DNA of 43,062 nt, from the NCBI GenBank assembly GCA_902777125.1, contig CACYSQ010000018.1, forward strand, positions 1-43,062. The letters are read 5' to 3'. Source of the DNA: Ruminococcus flavefaciens (GTDB taxonomy: Bacteria > Bacillota > Clostridia > Oscillospirales > Ruminococcaceae). The position numbers and the translations under genes were made by a program. Below are positions 3,493 through 42,736 of this stretch, piece by piece (within the stretch, counting starts at the first letter, position 1; each line of letters opens with the position of its first letter). The notes under the pieces are model-generated. The model was not told where the DNA came from. It searched no databases and saw only the letters and a program-made list of their open reading frames with translations.

Positions 3493-6400
3493 ATGCACAA
3501 GAAAATAGCAAAGGCTATTACAGGCAGTCTTACTGCCGCTGCAATGCTCGCTACCAGCGCTGTTGCTTTCATTCCTATGAGCGCATCCGCAGGTCAGCAG
3601 CTCGGACAGGTTGACTTCAATGAAGGCGTAGGTCTTCCGTGGCATACCTGTGAAACAAACCCCGCTAAGCAGACTTTCAACATCAGCGGCGGTACATACA
3701 ATGTTGAGATCGTTACTCCTACCGGTTCTGAAGGTAGATGGGATCTTCAGCTTCGTCACAGAGGCCTGACTATCGTTTCAGGTCATACTTACAAGATAAG
3801 CGGTGAGATCACTCCTTCTGAGGACGGTTACATCTACTCCAAGATCGGTAACTACTCCGGTGAAACTGAGCTCTGGCACAATCTTTCCGGTACAGAGTGG
3901 AAGCCGGCTCAGCTCAAGGGCGGCGAGACATTCAAGTTCAGCGATGAGTTCACAGCTACGGCTTCAATGGACGTTGCTGAGTGGGCTTTCCACTACGGTA
4001 ACTCTATCGGTACTGTTGCTGAGACAAAGTATCAGCATACTGATACAGGTTTCCCGGCTGGCACAGTTATCAAGTTCGATAACCTTTCACTCATAGATAC
4101 AACTTCTGATGCGAACGACTGGGATAAGACCAACGAGTTCGGCGTTATCAGACCTAAGAGCAATGTTCGTCTCAATCAGGTAGGTTACTATCCGAACCTC
4201 GCTAAGAAGGCTTCTTATGTAACTGATGCTGATACTCCTCTTGACTGGGAAGTTCGCAATTCCTCCGGTACTGCTGTTCTCACAGGCAAGACCAAGGTAT
4301 TCGGTGCTGACCCTGATTCAGGTAACGGCAAGACTGAGACATATGTAGATAAGAACGGCAATACCCTCAAGAAGGTAAAGGATTCCGGTGCTAACGTTCA
4401 TATCATCGACTTCTCCGAGCTCAAGGACGAGGGTGAGTATACTCTCTTCGTTAAGGATACAGTTGGTGTTTCCGGTACAGCTTCCGGTCTTACAGACGCT
4501 GCTTACGATACAACTATCAGCGGCGACAAGGTAATGTGGAAGAACTGGAAGACTGAAAAGTCATATGTTATGAACGAGTCCTGCAAGTTCAAAGTAGGCA
4601 ACGATATCTATGACGGCCTCCTTACTCAGGCAATGAGCTACTACTACCAGAACCGTTCTAACTCCTCTTGTGAAGAAAAGTACGTTTCCGGCTTCGAGAA
4701 CCCCAAATCCAAGGCTCCCCTTACTCATACTGAAAAGGGTCACCCCAAGGATATCGCACAGGTTCAGAAGGCTTGGATCAAGTCCTACTCTTCTGAGGCT
4801 GAGACTCAGACAGGCGTAACTGTTGACGGTACAGGCGGTTGGTACGATGCCGGTGACCACGGTAAGTACGCTGTTAACGGCGGTGTTTCCGTATGGACAC
4901 TCCAGAATATCTACGAAATGACCAAGAAGCTCGGCACAGACGCTAAGTGGACAGACGGCAAGACCGTTCGTATCCCTGAGAATGGCGACTCTGCTCCTGA
5001 TGCTCTCGATGAGGCAAGAATTGAGCTCCAGTGGATGATGGATATGCAGGTTCCCGCTACAGATTCTATCTGGGGATCCAAGTGCGAAGGCATGGTTTAC
5101 CACAAGCTCCACGACCAGAAGTGGACAGGTCTTGCTATCCACGCATGGCTGTACGAAGGCTTCAAGGGCTGCGTTCGTATCGCTAAGCCCCCGACGTATG
5201 CTGCTTCCTTCAACCTCGCTGCTTGCGGCGCTCAGGCTGCTCGTCTCTGGAAGGGTATAGACGATACATTCGCTGCAAAGGCTCTCGCAGCTGCTGAAAA
5301 GGCTTACGCTGCTGTTAAGAATTCCGGCAACGGCTACAAGGAAAAGGAAGGCAACTGGGAGAAGGATCCTCAGTTCGCACCTCTCGATCAGGCTATCGGC
5401 GGTGGTCCTTACGGTGATACATACGTAATGGACGATATGTACTGGGCTGCTTGTGAGCTCTACATCACAACCGGCAAGGACGAGTATCTCCAGGATCTCG
5501 AGGCTTATGAGAATCCTAACGACAAGAGCGGAACTGATAAGGCTTACAGCCTTACACAGTACCTCGGCGGCGGTGAGAACAAGGGTTCGATCAGCTCCTT
5601 CAACTGGGGTTGTACTTCCGGTCTCGGAAACCTCTCACTCTACCTCAACCAGGATAAGCTTACAGCTGCTAACGCTAAGAAGGTTACTGATTCTATTATT
5701 GATGCCGGCGATGCTTACCTGAAGGTTCAGTCTGAGCAGGGTATGGGTATTCCTTACTACGGCACAACATTCACAGATGATATCAACATCGGTAAGACTA
5801 AGGACGGCAAGTCTATCATCGTTGAGGGTTATGAGTGGGGTTCAAACTCCTTCGTAATCAACAATGCTATCGTTCTTGCTTACGCTTACATCGCTTCCGA
5901 CAATACTAAGTACCTCAACGGTGCTTCTGAGGCTCTCGACTACATCTTCGGACGTAACGGACTTGACTTCTCTTACGTTTCCGGTTGGGGCGAGACATCT
6001 CTGACATATCCTCACCACAGATTCTGGGCTGGCGGTATCGATCCCGAATTCCCGCTCGCACCTAAGGGCGTACTCTCCGGTGGTCCTGGTGCTGGTATGC
6101 AGGATCCTTACATCGGCGGTCTCGGCTACACAAGAGGTACTCTTGCAAACCAGAAGTGCTACGTTGACTCTGCTGAGGCATGGTCTGTTAACGAGATCAC
6201 TATCAACTGGAATGCTCCTCTCGTTTGGATGTCTTCATTCATGGACGATATGGCAGCAGGCGCTAAGCCGCAGCCTAGTTCTGAGTCTGAGTCCAACTCT
6301 GATATCGACGACGGTCTCTGGGGCGATGCTAACTGCGACGGTCAGGTTAATATGGCTGACGCTGTACTCATCATGCAGTCTATCGGCAACCCCGATAAGT

Positions 6401-36365: not shown

Positions 36366-39272
36366 TTAATAAATGTAAACAGTTGCCGTGACATCTTTGT
36401 ACTGCGGCAGCAATTCGGTACCGGGACGCTGGTCGATGAGGGGAGTTCCGTCGGCAGCGAACGTCACCTGTTTTATCCTTGTGTGACGGCAGGGATCATA
36501 GAGGGGGTCCTTGTTATAAGTGCCGCATTCACCGGAGGAATGCGATGCGGGACGTGCATGATATACGACGAGGAGGTCGCCGTTCTCGTCAACAACAAAG
36601 CAGTTGTGTCCGGGACCCGTTTCGCCGCTGAGGTCCTTTGTCGAAAGCACCGGAGTGCTTAGCTTGCTCCAGCTCGAAGCATTCATGAGGTCCGCATCAG
36701 CATCGGCTTCGAGCCTGCCGACACAGTATTCGGAACCTGTTCCGGAAGCCGAGAAGAATATGTAGACCTTGCCGTTCGTTTCAAGAACTGACGGTCCCTC
36801 GTTGACGCGGTTGTTTACTGTCTCCCAGTTGTATTCGGGCTTGGTGAGAAGTATCGGTGCTGATATGAGGCGGTAAGGGGCAGAAGGGTCGATCTCAGCC
36901 ATAAACAGCGAGGAATCGCCCTTTATCTCAGCCCATACGACATAATGTCTGCCGTTGTGTTCAAAGTAGGTCATATCGAGAGAGAAGCCGGCAAACGACT
37001 CCGTATCGCCGTCAGAAGCCTGCATCTGTCCGCATTCCTTCCAGCTTCCGGTATAGGGATCGCCGTCGCATTCAAGCACATACGGACGTATCGCCCAGAC
37101 ATTCTCAGTCGTTCCGGCAGCGAAGAAAATGTACCATTTTCCGCCGATGAAGTGCATTTCCGGAGCCCATATGTGCCGGGACATGATACCGCTCGAATGA
37201 GCTTTCCAGATCGTTTTTTCTTCCGCATCAGCCAGTCCGGCAACAGTCGTGCTGCGGCGGAGTACAATGCGGTCGTAGCCCTTGTCAGCGCTGCCGTAAG
37301 CCGGATACGAAGCCGTGAAGTAGAACCAGCCGTTTCCGCCGTCAACGATATACGGATCGGCACGTTCGGTTATGAACGGGTCAGCGTAATCTGCGGAAGA
37401 AGTCCTGACGGTGCCGTGCATCAGGTGCTTGCCGCGTGACAACGTGCTTATATTGGGGAGATCCCAGTCAACATGCATATCGGCAGTGCTTCCGTCGCTG
37501 TAAAGAGCCGTCACCTTTTCGGGAAGATCAGGCTCCTCGCCTTCCTTGACACAGACGTTCACCGGCTTGATACCGGTATTTATCTTTGTCAGCGAATCTG
37601 AGGGATAAGCACTGACAAGCGCATTGTACTGGTCGGCATTTATGGGAATGACGTAGCCGTGACGCGGAGTGAAGTCAAAGCTGTATTCGGAGCGCGGAAG
37701 TGACGTAAAGTTTTCAAGGTCCGATGTTTCCTGCATAACATAGTAGCCGTTGCCGTAAGCGTCCGACATCATCAGCCACTTGTCGGAATCGAGCATTTTG
37801 TAGATATTGGGACCCTCAACGCCGATGTTCCCCTCCGAGACCTGCTTTATCTCTCGGTAGGGACCGTTTGCATGGTCGGCTTCAGCAAGGTAGATACGCT
37901 TGTTGGTCTCATTCTTGTAGTACATATAGTATTTGCCGTCCTGACGGATAATGTCCGAATCAATGGCATCATTGCCGTTTTGCGGGGCAAAGAGTACGGC
38001 AGGCGCATCATTGAACTGCTTGAGGTCATCACTGTAGGCGTAATACATTATAGTCCTTTCGTCAGTGCCGGGAACTCTTGCCGCGAAGTAGACCATGTAC
38101 GACTTCTTTTCGGGATCGTATATCGCCTGCGGAGCCCATGCACGGTCGCAGTTCTGCATATTCGGGAATGCGTTCGCGACCTTTATAATGGTATCATCGA
38201 ACCAGTGAACGAGGTCGGTGGATTTTGCTGAAATGAGATCACGATTGCTGTTCCAGCCGAGTGAGGACTTCATATCGGTAGCAAGCAGGTGGTAAAGACC
38301 GTCCTCACCCTTGAAGATGTAGGGGTCCCTTATACACTTTGTACCGGCATCAGACTGCCATATGGCTCTTCCACCATTGAGGGCATGGAAGTTCTTTCCG
38401 TCAAGGCTGACAGCGTAGGAGAGCCTTTCCTGTTCGGGAGCATTCCCGAGAAAATACGCGAACAGATAAGCGACCGGCGGCTTCTCCGCTGAGACCTCAG
38501 CGTACAGGTCGATGTTCGCCTCTCTGCCGAGGAGGAAATTGCTTATCAGAGCTACATCGTTTTCATCGACGAAGCCGTTGCCGTCGAGGTCGGCTCTCAT
38601 AGTCTGCGGATCGTCAGCAGGCTTTCCGATACACCGGCTGACGAGTATCTTGTCAAAGATATCGACCCTGCCGTTGAGGTTAATATCGCAGCGCATGAGC
38701 TTATGATCGCCGCCAGCAGGCCTTATGTAGAATTTCTGACCTTCGCCTCCCCAGTAGTCCCACTGGTCGATGTTAGCGCCGTTATCGTAGCTTATATCGT
38801 ACACATCGAGAGCTGTGCGGCCGGAGCATTCGGCGGTTATCCAGTAAGCGTCGTCGGTCCTGTGGAGAATGTACTTCTGAGAGGGCAGACTTTTATACTC
38901 CGAGAGGAAGATGTTATTGCCGTTGGCGGAGTCTTCATTTTCAACGGTGAGTGAAAGCGACTTGTCAGCACATGAGAGTATACTGCAAGTACCGTCACCG
39001 TTGGCAGTGATGTGCCATTTCTGCTGGTCACTGCCGTTCTTTTCCCATTGCATAACATTGCCGGAACTGTCAGCGGTGATCATTTTTCCGCTCAGCCGGA
39101 CCATGATGTTGTAGTCCTCGCCGCTGATTATCTCGCAGCAGTCGTCGGCGTACAGCCGCCTGTTTCTATCGGCAGACTGCTCGTACTCTATTGAACCGGC
39201 TGAGAGGGACAGTCCGCCCAAGGCTGTCGCGGCAGAGATGAGAGCCGGGATCGTTCTTTTTAGCAGCTTCAT
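36366..39272 (-). CDS. Ricin-dockerin-GH43-Ig-GH43 hemicellulase
   Basis: A secreted 968-residue enzyme with two family 43 modules, expected to remove arabinose or xylose from hemicellulose. The ATG at 39272 (MKLLKRTIPAL) follows AGGAGGT; the longer frame has no site. A signal peptide (about 1-26) is followed by a ricin-type beta-trefoil/CBM13 (about 45-185), then a dockerin in the interior (about 195-252; CDINLNGRVDIFDKILVSR and ADLDGNGFVDENDVALISNF). GH43-1 follows (about 262-560; base Asp in CIRDPYIF, acid Glu in VEGPNI), then a bacterial Ig-like segment (about 570-640) and GH43-2 (about 645-950; Asp in RADPYIV, Glu in NEGPSV). An interior dockerin is less common than a terminal one. Its sequence differs from that of the two GH9 enzymes, so its cohesin may differ. 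Confidence 0.92.
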   Translation of the reverse strand: MKLLKRTIPALISAATALGGLSLSAGSIEYEQSADRNRRLYADDCCEIISGEDYNIMVRLSGKMITADSSGNVMQWEKNGSDQQKWHITANGDGTCSILSCADKSLSLTVENEDSANGNNIFLSEYKSLPSQKYILHRTDDAYWITAECSGRTALDVYDISYDNGANIDQWDYWGGEGQKFYIRPAGGDHKLMRCDINLNGRVDIFDKILVSRCIGKPADDPQTMRADLDGNGFVDENDVALISNFLLGREANIDLYAEVSAEKPPVAYLFAYFLGNAPEQERLSYAVSLDGKNFHALNGGRAIWQSDAGTKCIRDPYIFKGEDGLYHLLATDMKSSLGWNSNRDLISAKSTDLVHWFDDTIIKVANAFPNMQNCDRAWAPQAIYDPEKKSYMVYFAARVPGTDERTIMYYAYSDDLKQFNDAPAVLFAPQNGNDAIDSDIIRQDGKYYMYYKNETNKRIYLAEADHANGPYREIKQVSEGNIGVEGPNIYKMLDSDKWLMMSDAYGNGYYVMQETSDLENFTSLPRSEYSFDFTPRHGYVIPINADQYNALVSAYPSDSLTKINTGIKPVNVCVKEGEEPDLPEKVTALYSDGSTADMHVDWDLPNISTLSRGKHLMHGTVRTSSADYADPFITERADPYIVDGGNGWFYFTASYPAYGSADKGYDRIVLRRSTTVAGLADAEEKTIWKAHSSGIMSRHIWAPEMHFIGGKWYIFFAAGTTENVWAIRPYVLECDGDPYTGSWKECGQMQASDGDTESFAGFSLDMTYFEHNGRHYVVWAEIKGDSSLFMAEIDPSAPYRLISAPILLTKPEYNWETVNNRVNEGPSVLETNGKVYIFFSASGTGSEYCVGRLEADADADLMNASSWSKLSTPVLSTKDLSGETGPGHNCFVVDENGDLLVVYHARPASHSSGECGTYNKDPLYDPCRHTRIKQVTFAADGTPLIDQRPGTELLPQYKDVTATVYIY

Positions 39273-39323
39273 ACATACCTCCTGTTGTAAATAATTATCA
39301 ATATCCGGGATAATACTGTTATT

Positions 39324-39352
39324 ATTATACAATATGCAGTGATGAATTGCAA
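39324..39352 (-). promoter_or_regulatory. Promoter of the GH43 gene
   Basis: Minus strand: TTGCAA (39352-39347), 17 bases, TATAAT (39329-39324). The leader is about 45 bases. Confidence 0.7.
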
Positions 39353-39581: not shown

Positions 39582-40238
39582 TCAGTCAGTCATCTCTTCC
39601 GCAATTTTCAGAAGTATCTCTGCGTCGGTATCTTCATTCAGGGATACCGAGAAGAAATGTCCGTCTTTTATCCACGAAGCAAGGTGATACTTTCCGTCAT
39701 AGCCTTTGAGCGTGACGTCGGTGTTGTTGAGCTGAACGCTTTCGATGCTGGTGAATTCGTCAAGCTCTCCGGAGATATCCTCCGTGTCCCTGCCGACCCT
39801 GAAACAGCATTCCTCATCGTTTTTGCCGCAGTACACGACCTCGGCAAAGCTTTCGGAAATGATAGAATAGCTGACGGATTCAGCCTCAAAAGGCAGTGCT
39901 GTTATATCGTGTATCTCAAAGCCGAATTTCTCCGATAACTCAGCCGCGTTCCGGTAGGATTCAGCGCCGTGGGTAAGCGCATCGTTAACGGTAGGCTCGG
40001 TTGCCTGCGATGAGGTTATCGTCGTATCCTTGCCCGGCTTTTTACCGAAAGAACCGGTATTCTTCATGACAGCAACCGTTCCGAATGCTATTGCAGCACA
40101 GGCTGCCGCTGCTGTTACAGCACCGGCTATCCTGCTTATGCGCCGGCGTTTATTCTTAGCTTTGACGTTACTGAGGATACGCTCGCGCATTTCGTCAGTA
40201 AGCTCAATATGTTCCATGATCTCATTATACCTGCCCAC
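39582..40238 (-). CDS. Probable membrane anti-sigma factor
   Basis: A 218-residue protein. A short cytoplasmic part begins MGRYNEIMEHIELTDEMRER and ends in a basic KAKNKRRRISR segment. One membrane helix follows (AGAVTAAAACAAIAFGTVAV), then an outer domain of about 150 residues resembling DUF4367-type sensor domains. The gene overlaps the end of the ECF sigma gene and is translated after it, the usual arrangement for sigma/anti-sigma pairs. The start is uncertain: GTG 40238 fits the GAGGAG site best; TTG 40247 and ATG 40217 are alternatives. No zinc-finger anti-sigma motif (HxxxCxxC) is seen, so the assignment rests on position and topology. Confidence 0.7.
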   Translation of the reverse strand: MGRYNEIMEHIELTDEMRERILSNVKAKNKRRRISRIAGAVTAAAACAAIAFGTVAVMKNTGSFGKKPGKDTTITSSQATEPTVNDALTHGAESYRNAAELSEKFGFEIHDITALPFEAESVSYSIISESFAEVVYCGKNDEECCFRVGRDTEDISGELDEFTSIESVQLNNTDVTLKGYDGKYHLASWIKDGHFFSVSLNEDTDAEILLKIAEEMTD

Positions 40239-40824
40239 AGAAATCAAACTCCTCTTTCAGAATTTCCCTGAGTTTATCCCTCGCACGTTTCAGCCTTGTG
40301 CGGATATTTGCACCGGATTCGCCGAGTATATCGGCAATCTCGTCTGTCTGGTAGCCCTCCTCGTAGAAAAGGTGAATGACTTCGCGGTAATTGTCCGGGA
40401 GCTCCTTTACAGCCTCCCACACAAACGAGAGATCCTGACGTTCCTCGGCGACAAGTTCATCTTCAAGCTCGTCTGTATCACGCAGCTTGTTGTATTCTAT
40501 CCGGTTTTTGGAGAGGTTCGCGGTCACTCTCAGGAGCCATGCCTTTTCGTGCTCATCGCTCTCAAAAACCGGTGCTTTATCCATAAGTTTCAGCAGAACG
40601 TCCTGCAATACCTCCTCTGAATCCTGCATATTGTGAAGGTAGGAGTAAGCGAGCCTGAGCAGGCGGTTCCCGTGCTTATCCATAATACCGCGGAGGTACC
40701 TGTCCGCTGTGTCAGCCTTGCTTTCGGAGCGTTTTATGCCGAATATCTGAGCTGCAAAGGCACAGACTGAAAGGAAGAGCCTTCGCAGTGCAATGAGAGG
40801 GGAATTCCGTAACGCAAGTTCCAT
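40225..40824 (-). CDS. ECF-type RNA polymerase sigma factor
   Basis: A 199-residue sigma-70 family factor. Region 2 spans about 45-110, with LLRLAYSYLHNMQDSEEVLQ, DVLLKL and EKAWLLRVTANLSKNRI. Region 4 spans about 135-190, with LPDNYREVIHLFYEEGYQTD and EIADILGESGANIRTRLKRA. It directs transcription of an unknown regulon. It starts at ATG 40824, 12 bases after the cystatin-like lipoprotein stop, with an AGGAGC site. The first about 45 residues (SPLIALRRLFLSVCAFAAQI) are hydrophobic and basic and precede region 2, an unusual extension. An internal Met at residue 48 would remove it, but has no clear site. Confidence 0.9.
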   Translation of the reverse strand: MELALRNSPLIALRRLFLSVCAFAAQIFGIKRSESKADTADRYLRGIMDKHGNRLLRLAYSYLHNMQDSEEVLQDVLLKLMDKAPVFESDEHEKAWLLRVTANLSKNRIEYNKLRDTDELEDELVAEERQDLSFVWEAVKELPDNYREVIHLFYEEGYQTDEIADILGESGANIRTRLKRARDKLREILKEEFDFCGQV

Positions 40825-40836
40825 ATAGTGCTCCTG

Positions 40837-41604
40837 TTAGTCCTCGTTTTCCTCTGTGATGTCGTACTCACCGAATACGATATCTCTGATGTCGATGATG
40901 CTTGCATTTTTCTCGAGGTCAGAGTAGACTGTCACCAGTGCAAATCCGGGCTCTGCATCGGGAACTGTAGCTGTCTGCTTGCAGAGAACAAGGTAATTCG
41001 AGCCTGCAACGACCTGACTTCCGAGATATACGACCGGTTCTAATTCGGCACCTGTCATTGCCTGTGTTGCCTTTTCAAAAGCGGCTTTCACATCGGCGTT
41101 GTTTTCGAGTTTAAGGTCGCCGCTGTTGGCAGCAAATCCGCCGTCGAGCATCTCGCTGTCGATTATTGTTTTTGTGTTGGTGAGCTCAGCCTTGCCCTGC
41201 AAATTCTCATAGATATAGACAAGCTGGATAACCGGCTGAGCGTCCGGAACAGTTGCCCTGCCTCTGCAAAGAATGCAGTAATTTGTACCTGCAACTACCT
41301 GTGTTGCAAGAACGACAATGGGTTCGTATTCCATACCGCAAAACGCTTCTGTTGCCTTTTCAAATGCCGATTTTGCAGCGGCATTTGCGCTGAGTGAAGT
41401 ATCTCCTGTAACGGCTGACCAGCCTCCTGCTAAACGGATCATAGTTCCCTCCTTGTTCTCAGTAATTTCGGTAGTTTTTTCGGGGACAGTCTCGTCAGAG
41501 ACATTAGCTCCCGGTCTGATGTCAGATGAGCTTTCAATGCTTCCGCAAGCTGTCATAGATGCTGCCAGAACGAGTGCCATTGCTGCTGTGATTATTTTTT
41601 TCAT
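40837..41604 (-). CDS. Lipoprotein with two cystatin-like domains
   Basis: A 255-residue predicted lipoprotein: signal peptide with lipobox SMTAC (Cys20), a linker rich in Ser/Thr/Glu, then two homologous domains (about 58-148 and 153-243). Each has a Gly-Gly (60-61, 155-156), a helix (AAKSAFEKATEAF, DVKAAFEKATQAM), and the cystatin hallmark QVVAG (102-106 QVVAGTNY; 197-201 QVVAGSNY). The order GG, helix, QxVxG is that of stefins/cystatins, which block papain-type cysteine proteases. The second cystatin hairpin (PW or LPG) is only weakly matched by ENLQGK. It is first in an operon with an ECF sigma and an anti-sigma. Protease inhibition is inferred, not shown. Confidence 0.75.
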   Translation of the reverse strand: MKKIITAAMALVLAASMTACGSIESSSDIRPGANVSDETVPEKTTEITENKEGTMIRLAGGWSAVTGDTSLSANAAAKSAFEKATEAFCGMEYEPIVVLATQVVAGTNYCILCRGRATVPDAQPVIQLVYIYENLQGKAELTNTKTIIDSEMLDGGFAANSGDLKLENNADVKAAFEKATQAMTGAELEPVVYLGSQVVAGSNYLVLCKQTATVPDAEPGFALVTVYSDLEKNASIIDIRDIVFGEYDITEENED

Positions 41605-41705
41605 AATAAATACCTGCTTTCTTAGTTTTTTAACGGTTTATCTGCCGTTCTGACCTATATACAGCCGGGGCAGCAAAATTGTGACACAAGTTCAAAAAAA
41701 TTTTC

Positions 41706-41958: not shown

Positions 41959-42048
41959 ATGGTACGCAAATCCGGGAAACCAATAAAACCAGGATCAATG
42001 AGAGAAATTATCAGCAGCTTTGTAAGGGGAGAGCGTTATGAATACTGA
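41959..42048 (+). CDS. Small upstream ORF, 29 residues
   Basis: The ATG at 41959 follows GGAG by 10 bases and encodes a basic peptide beginning MVRKSGKPIKPGSMREIISS. It ends with TGA at 42046-42048, overlapping the endonuclease V start (42038) in another frame. It could couple translation or be spurious. No family is recognised. Confidence 0.3.
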   Translation: MVRKSGKPIKPGSMREIISSFVRGERYEY

Positions 42049-42736
42049 AGAGATGCAGAAGGATTTTTTAGCAAAGCAGAATGAACTGCGTGACAGGATA
42101 GAAACTGTTGACAGGTTTGACCCCGGCAGTGTTAAGCTCGTTGCCGGTGTTGACCTTGCGTACTGGGGGCAGGGCGATGACGAATATGCAGTGTGCTGTA
42201 TAGTTGTGATCGGGTCCGATACGCATAATGTCGTTGAAAAGAAGCAGTACAGCGGAAAGATCGAGGTACCGTATATGCCGGGATTTCTCGCGTTCAGAGA
42301 GCTGCCGCTGATACTGAAAACAGTGGAGCTGCTCGAAACAGGTCCGGATATTTTCATATTTGACGGCAACGGCTACCTGCACCCGCGCCACATGGGCATC
42401 GCAACTCACGCATCTTTTTACCTCAACAAGCCGACTATCGGTATCGCAAAGACCTACTTCCGCGTCGATAAAAAGACAGACTACACAGAGCCCGGAAACG
42501 ATGCCGGAAGCTATACGGATATCGTCATAGACGGCGAAGTTTACGGCAGAGCGCTGAGAACGCATAAAGATGTTAAGCCGGTATTCGTTTCCGTCGGAAA
42601 CTTTGTCTCCCTTGATACCGCCTGTGCTCTTGCGATGAAGCTTACCGACAGGGAAAGCCATATCCCGATACCTACAAGACTGGCCGATCTTGAGACGCAT
42701 ATTGCAAGGGAAGCATTGAAAAGCGCCGGCGTGTAA
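42038..42736 (+). CDS. nfi: Endonuclease V
   Basis: A 232-residue DNA repair nuclease that nicks near deoxyinosine. Conserved segments are VAGVDLAYWG (catalytic Asp), YMPGFLAFRELP, FDGNGYLHPRHMGIATHASF (second acidic site), PTIGIAKTYF, RTHKDVKPVFVSVGNFVSL and SHIPIPTRLADL. Length and motif order are normal. The ATG follows AAGGGGAG. It is monocistronic, with a terminator at 42815. It is unrelated to the EPS or cellulosome genes. Confidence 0.93.
   Translation: MNTEEMQKDFLAKQNELRDRIETVDRFDPGSVKLVAGVDLAYWGQGDDEYAVCCIVVIGSDTHNVVEKKQYSGKIEVPYMPGFLAFRELPLILKTVELLETGPDIFIFDGNGYLHPRHMGIATHASFYLNKPTIGIAKTYFRVDKKTDYTEPGNDAGSYTDIVIDGEVYGRALRTHKDVKPVFVSVGNFVSLDTACALAMKLTDRESHIPIPTRLADLETHIAREALKSAGV

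Follow-up and report, generated by a model that had tools for sequence, protein, structure and literature searches.

The window analysed here, the whole 43,062-nucleotide stretch of Ruminococcus flavefaciens contig CACYSQ010000018.1, carries on its reverse strand, at 40837..41604, a gene for a predicted lipoprotein of 255 aa with two tandem cystatin-like domains, recognised from the open reading frame, Pfam, a PDB search and a structural model. The N-terminus, MKKIITAAMALVLAASMTACGS, contains, as judged by eye, a signal sequence with the lipobox-like motif MTAC, and on this ground the lipoprotein assignment made in the first-pass annotation is retained as a prediction. A Ser/Thr/Glu-rich linker lies between the signal sequence and the two repeats, which are 48% identical to each other. 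Domain 1 comprises residues about 58-150 (41155..41433, reverse strand), delimited by repeat comparison, model and Foldseek, and domain 2 residues about 151-249 (40858..41154, reverse strand), delimited by repeat comparison and sequence. On the same strand, domain 1 contains a Gly-Gly at residues 60-61 (41422..41427) and a QVVAGTNY at residues 102-109 (41278..41301), the latter placed in the first hairpin loop by motif position and model; motif position likewise locates in domain 2 a Gly-Gly at residues 155-156 (41137..41142) and a QVVAGSNY at residues 197-204 (40993..41016). Stefins, i.e., cystatin A and B of MEROPS family I25, have 42 residues between Gly and QVVAG, and the same distance separates Gly-Gly from QVVAG in both repeats, which bears out the stefin-like order and spacing that had been claimed for them. 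The double cystatin-like reading frame, as first noted, is confirmed as real.

The lipoprotein gene is the first of an operon. The gene of an ECF sigma factor of 199 aa (40225..40824, reverse strand) begins 12 nt downstream, and its product matches Sigma70 regions 2 and 4 (Sigma70_r2 and r4_2) with 43.4 and 46 bits, above the Pfam cut-offs. The end of the sigma gene overlaps by 23 nt the reading frame of a likely anti-sigma factor (39582..40247, reverse strand; Pfam and profile), with a length of 221 aa when read from the first possible start, a hydrophobic segment seen by eye and a DUF4367-like C-terminus, this outer part scoring 21.6 bits where the cut-off is 22.1. A simple scan of the region found no terminators on the strand of the operon. 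Divergent from it, at 42038-42736 on the forward strand, lies a gene for Endonuclease V (PF04493, 216.5 bits). The gene at 36366-39332 (reverse strand) encodes a GH43 enzyme whose further domains are ricin-type lectin, Big_4 and dockerin, an architecture that points to a cellulosome-type plant degrader.

The search with the cystatin family profile sustained the proposed relationship in part. In a direct scan, the Pfam Cystatin model matched the lipoprotein with E 7.1e-4, but its 20.2 bits narrowly missed the curated cut-off of 22.2, which was reached by none of the tested proteins or domains of the group. A six-frame search of the whole genome of the window with the same profile gave no match, presumably because this kind of search has a lower sensitivity than the direct scan. 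Searches of the PDB led to cystatins. A phmmer search with the single lipoprotein sequence returned one match at E<=10, the cystatin 6i1m (E 0.0047). A profile built from 10 domains gave 25 matches at E<=10, which include 18 cystatins and four chorismate mutases (the best of these with E 0.012), and a profile of 19 domains, which includes the window's own two, gave 23 matches at E<=1, of which 22 were cystatin-type (best E 1.3e-4), and aligned residues 4 to 58 of stefin A. When profiles were compared with each other, the match to the cystatins of rice and chicken was weak (probability 17.7, P 0.0014, 21 columns); as controls, 60 column shuffles reached a maximum of 5.1, and the sigma and anti-sigma alignments gave 0.1 each.

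The fold of domain 1 was predicted by AlphaFold from residues 54-150 and nine alignment rows, with a pLDDT of 91.1 and a pTM of 0.82. The model begins with a strand and a helix, followed by four strands, so that an antiparallel sheet wraps the helix, and QVVAG is placed at the turn between beta2 and beta3. When it was compared with the PDB by Foldseek, the top 10 matches were all cystatins (probability 0.97-1.00, best E 1.7e-3), with TM-scores of 0.42-0.58 and rmsd values of 3.6-6.6, none of them reaching E 0.001; from rank 11 onwards, unrelated folds (PARC6, ketosteroid-isomerase-like proteins and a CDI immunity complex) appear, interspersed with more cystatins. The predicted topology of domain 1 is therefore that of a cystatin, as had been supposed, and not an unlike fold. 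A model of the two domains together was discarded as poor (pLDDT 54.5). The second hairpin loop of cystatins makes its contact through Pro-Trp, or through Leu-Pro in stefins; in domain 1 this loop, as located by the secondary structure of the model, reads L-Q-G-K, and is neither of the two.

Taking into account that stefins (I25A) have a single domain and no signal peptide, the window protein, with its tandem domains and signal sequence, is not a stefin. Type 2 cystatins (I25B) possess two disulfides in their C-terminal half; their cysteine pattern, looked for by eye, is absent from the translation of the lipoprotein, and because of this mismatch the protein is not a type 2 cystatin either. 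The domains are cystatin-like and are most likely members of the superfamily, in which they would constitute a separate bacterial group.

The fetched loci gave 235 domain hits, but as loci overlap, many of these hits stem from one and the same gene; 115 different sequences that extend over the loop were counted. The QxVxG motif is retained in 100 of these and missing in 15, and a Gly near the N-terminus is found in every one of the 102 distinct sequences that cover that part. These best-conserved residues form what we take to be the protease-binding edge of cystatins. A Cys 11 residues after the Q, present in 90/115 sequences, is to our knowledge no part of known cystatin motifs. In an alignment of 19 domains (A7), in which the two of the window are joined by 17 taken from 10 other loci, the other 18 are 29-52% identical to domain 1, save one at 86%, and columns G5, Q47, V49, G51 and N53 are invariant; these five columns overstate conservation, since two repeats lacking QxVxG (the second of L046 and the first of L052/L004) were omitted.

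Matches to the cystatin domain are found in four of 60 genomes near that of the window, its own included (G000, G010, G050 and G042). Ten of the 14 genomes that matched the whole protein were dropped, as the match was confined to residues 1-76, corresponding to signal sequence and linker. The domain was detected in 13/391 genomes across the class (a figure that includes short single-domain proteins and one sequence with internal stops), in 21/394 genomes of the order, and in 43/59 genomes of the genus of G255. The sole match in genome_contigs was a Ruminococcus MAG with a 74% identical protein and the same operon. This patchy spread agrees with passages of the survey published in 2009 (Kordis and Turk, PMC2784779).

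Other arrangements of the domain were also observed. In G010, from the same genus, L053 encodes at 5234-6136 a triple cystatin-like protein without signal sequence, and this gene adjoins an apparent sporulation sigma gene, recognised by eye. Two IMG/VR contigs carry related genes: L025 (2656-3270) encodes a double cystatin-like protein of 204 aa without signal sequence, and L024 (58-3261) a protein of 1067 aa with a cystatin-like domain at its C-terminus. Bacterial relatives of the query that have one domain and a length of about 90-100 aa are encoded in L023, L026, L054, L055, L056, L057 and L173, and all of these proteins are missed by Pfam Cystatin at E<=0.1.

An ECF sigma gene adjoins the cystatin gene in 8 of the 30 cystatin loci examined, a lower bound because some of the other 22 lie near contig ends. 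Two sigma types can be distinguished. The first is found at six loci (the window, G801/L022, G050, G612, G449 and G255), with mutual identities of 50-85%; since the window and L022, as well as G050 and G612, are close pairs, it represents at least four separate lineages. The second type, in G214 and G756, is at most 32% identical to the first, and its two members are 40% identical to each other. In G050, G612 and G449, the double-cystatin lipoprotein has an additional C-terminal domain, which scores 74.5, 65.0 and 73.6 bits, respectively, against the anti-sigma profile, and these fused lipoproteins stand beside sigma and anti-sigma genes. A wider anti-sigma profile (E<=1e-6) matched 29 of 391 class genomes, in three of which (G000, G214 and G255) the match lies beside a cystatin gene. 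The cystatin lipoproteins of L045 (G214) and L169 (G756) are located beside the second ECF sigma type, and the promoter element described below is lacking there; no anti-sigma match was seen at L169. These two loci suggest that a cystatin was recruited into a sigma operon a second time.

Upstream of the lipoprotein gene, a predicted ECF promoter, GTCACA-N15-CTGTAT, was located at 41659..41685 (reverse strand) by upstream comparison and genome scan. The element was derived from 11 cystatin upstream regions, five of them aligned and the rest compared by eye, and its shared form is GCAACA-N15-CTGTAT; the window and L022 have GTCACA instead, and G255 has TTGTAT. This fixed-spacer element accompanies the first sigma type: GYMACA-N15-YTGTAT is present upstream of the cystatin gene at each of the six loci of that type, at neither of the two loci with the second type (G214 and G756), and in 3 of the 22 loci that lack a neighbouring sigma gene (for L178, one of the 22, upstream sequence is missing). 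Counted by genome, 6/6 against 3/21 gives a Fisher p of 2.8e-4, a value that ignores descent and includes the defining loci; G612 and G449 were outside the element-defining set, the copy of G449 being independent and that of G612 repeating that of G050. The sigma-dependent expression expected from gene order hence gains promoter evidence, the element being present in all six operons of the first sigma type.

The strict form, GYMACA-N15-CTGTAT, has one site in the 2.62 Mb window assembly and one in G050, each before the cystatin operon. As the reversed control pattern matches once in the window genome and twice in G050, these numbers are not above chance and it is the placement alone that speaks. 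Over 8 genomes, 45 strict sites were counted against 8 for the reversed pattern. G801 has five strict matches and one of the control, and the only strict match that precedes a gene under the criteria of the script lies before the cystatin gene. Near the predicted 5' end of the window mRNA, RNA folding revealed a small hairpin, AACGG...CCGTT (41632..41649, reverse strand). In all six operons of the first sigma type such a hairpin starts 8-11 bases past the predicted -10, with stems of differing sequence, and folds at -4.2 to -10.1 kcal/mol, compared with -0.3 to -3.9 in three unlinked genes, all values being those of the native sequences alone. Possibly, it acts as a stabiliser of the mRNA 5' end.

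The same element was followed in the genus of G255, where one cystatin locus was taken from each of 30 of the 43 genomes (G143, G255 and G348 being already known), together with the best serpin match from each of 30 genomes, out of 86 places in 51 genomes. Serpin genes had played no part in defining the element. Its strict form precedes 14 of the 30 cystatin loci and 15 of the 30 serpin loci, and is absent from the remaining 16 and 15; the reversed pattern gave 0 in both sets. These counts are not independent events, because the genomes share ancestry. Over 59 loci, a spacer of 15 nt was found 28 times, spacers of 10 and 14 nt once each, and the other 13 lengths within 8 to 23 nt never; among 93 other genes in these loci, the element stands before just one, which proved to be the serpin of L210. 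G348 has a sigma/anti-sigma pair whose neighbour is a serpin lipoprotein (PF00079, E 2.9e-78), and a separate copy of the element precedes this serpin gene.

In the genus of G255, strict sites also precede the first-type sigma genes of G348, G143 and G255, DUF4349 proteins in G214, G143 and G348, and several lipoproteins without Pfam family; some further matches in this genus are before no gene of the sigma, DUF4349, lipoprotein or inhibitor kind. Taking into account that lipoproteins of unknown function share the element, the signal could be general envelope stress. The serpins suggest that extracellular proteolysis, and not other envelope stress, is the common theme.

It is proposed that the lipoprotein is probably a tandem inhibitor of papain-like cysteine proteases, anchored at the cell surface and produced under the control of the ECF sigma factor of its own operon. 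This reading is based on the cystatin resemblance of the domains and the model of domain 1, on gene order, and on the promoter element, with its single strict site in the genome of the window and its occurrence before serpin lipoprotein genes of another genus. The lipid anchor would display the two cystatin-like domains outside the membrane, where the N-terminal Gly-Gly and the QVVAG hairpin of each would plug the active-site cleft of papain-fold enzymes competitively. Proteolytic or envelope damage outside the cell would cause the anti-sigma factor in the membrane to let go of the sigma factor, and the freed sigma factor would read GTCACA-N15-CTGTAT, leading to more inhibitor, sigma and anti-sigma factor. 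Once the protease had been removed by the inhibitor, the signal would end, closing a negative feedback. We infer that an extracellular protease would be at the same time the target and the signal; plant, ciliate, host and competitor proteases remain the candidate targets.

A broader proposal is put forward more tentatively. Clostridia may possess a dedicated extracytoplasmic anti-protease response, in which an ECF/anti-sigma system would sense extracellular proteolysis by means of the anti-sigma ectodomain and yield lipid-anchored cystatins and serpins, inhibitors whose folds are unrelated. In the genome of the window, all that is left of this response might be a single sigma factor, a single promoter and a single inhibitor operon acting as a closed loop, and certain relatives might combine inhibitor and anti-sigma-type sensor in one protein.

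The fused lipoproteins of G050, G612 and G449 can also be understood in another way, namely that the lipoprotein is mainly a signalling accessory, whose domains would recognise some protein or peptide and then either relay this to the anti-sigma factor or protect that factor, with no inhibition of proteases. The distribution of the anti-sigma factor fits such a role too, since 2 of 60 genomes contain a homologue of the window anti-sigma factor at E<=1e-5, namely G050 and the genome of the window itself, both of which have the cystatin operon. This role nevertheless appears unlikely: 22 of the 30 cystatin loci have no sigma neighbour (although some are near contig ends), the best-conserved residues are those of the presumed protease-binding edge, and the same promoter element precedes serpins, which have another inhibitor fold. 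The inhibitor might instead protect the cell from its own extracellular papain-like peptidases, of which the window genome has two candidates, Peptidase_C1 proteins with lectin-like domains (L058 and L059). Both genes are, however, on other contigs; within the genus, 31 of 36 genomes (that of the window among them) have Peptidase_C1, whereas cystatin-domain matches are found in 2 of 36; and in G050, a genome 98% complete, the operon is present but no C1 match was obtained at E<=1e-5. Such self-protection is therefore disfavoured, and we regard it as quite improbable.

About equally improbable is that the cystatin-like fold serves a non-inhibitory function, the QVVAG match being a convergence or a relic. 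The Pfam cut-off missed by all members tested, the weak profile-profile score, the second hairpin loop without Pro-Trp, the 15 domains of 115 in which QxVxG has been lost, and the Cys shared by 90 of them outside the cystatin motifs known to us would be in agreement with that function. Against it stand the retention of QxVxG in the other 100 and of the N-terminal Gly in all 102 sequences, the 42-residue spacing of both window repeats, and the fact that the top fold and profile matches are cystatins. Inhibition of papain-like proteases by a surface-anchored tandem protein is thus the reading we prefer.

Cystatin-type inhibitors had been described in the first-pass annotation as best known from eukaryotes, and in this respect it has to be corrected, since bacterial stefins and cystatins, Clostridia included, have been described since 2009 (Kordis and Turk, PMC2784779). 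Passages of that paper report multidomain bacterial cases, such as a triplication in Polaribacter and a stefin-chagasin fusion in Bacteroides fragilis, and propose that these proteins act as 'emergency inhibitors' (PMC2784779). The window protein resembles these cases in having cystatin superfamily domains in a bacterium. It differs in being a predicted lipoprotein, a word absent from the main text of the paper, and in having a sigma operon and a promoter, neither of which appears in the passages considered here (PMC2784779). In the literature searched, mostly outside subscription journals, no cystatin or serpin tied to an ECF sigma factor was apparent from titles and the beginnings of abstracts, and no paper on DUF4367 was found. 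The new part is the regulation, i.e., the cystatin gene's own sigma operon and promoter element.

The sigma operon and the element shared with serpins make the 'emergency inhibitor' suggestion testable, as it can now be tied to a given regulator, a given promoter and a probable kind of signal. If the proposal is true, bacteria of the gut and rumen produce protease inhibitors at their surface when these are needed, which would matter for how they survive in the presence of ciliates, plant material, host proteases and bacterial competitors. Moreover, a group of bacterial cystatin-like domains escapes the current Pfam model, as far as the members tested are concerned.

Compared with stefins (cystatin A and B), the window protein shares the N-terminal Gly, the QVVAGTNY 42 residues on and the order strand, helix, four strands, and differs in its tandem domains, its predicted signal sequence and lipid anchor, and its score below the Pfam cut-off. 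Cyspin of Clostridium cellulovorans, a secreted cysteine-protease inhibitor of a plant-degrading Clostridium, has a chagasin-type fold, whereas the window domains are cystatin-like. In systems of the SigV/RsiV and SigW type, envelope proteins are controlled by an ECF sigma factor whose anti-sigma partner is located in the membrane. The locus described here is like them in having sigma and anti-sigma factor in one operon with a two-part promoter upstream, and unlike them in that a cystatin-like lipoprotein comes first and that GCAACA-N15-CTGTAT also precedes serpins in another genus.
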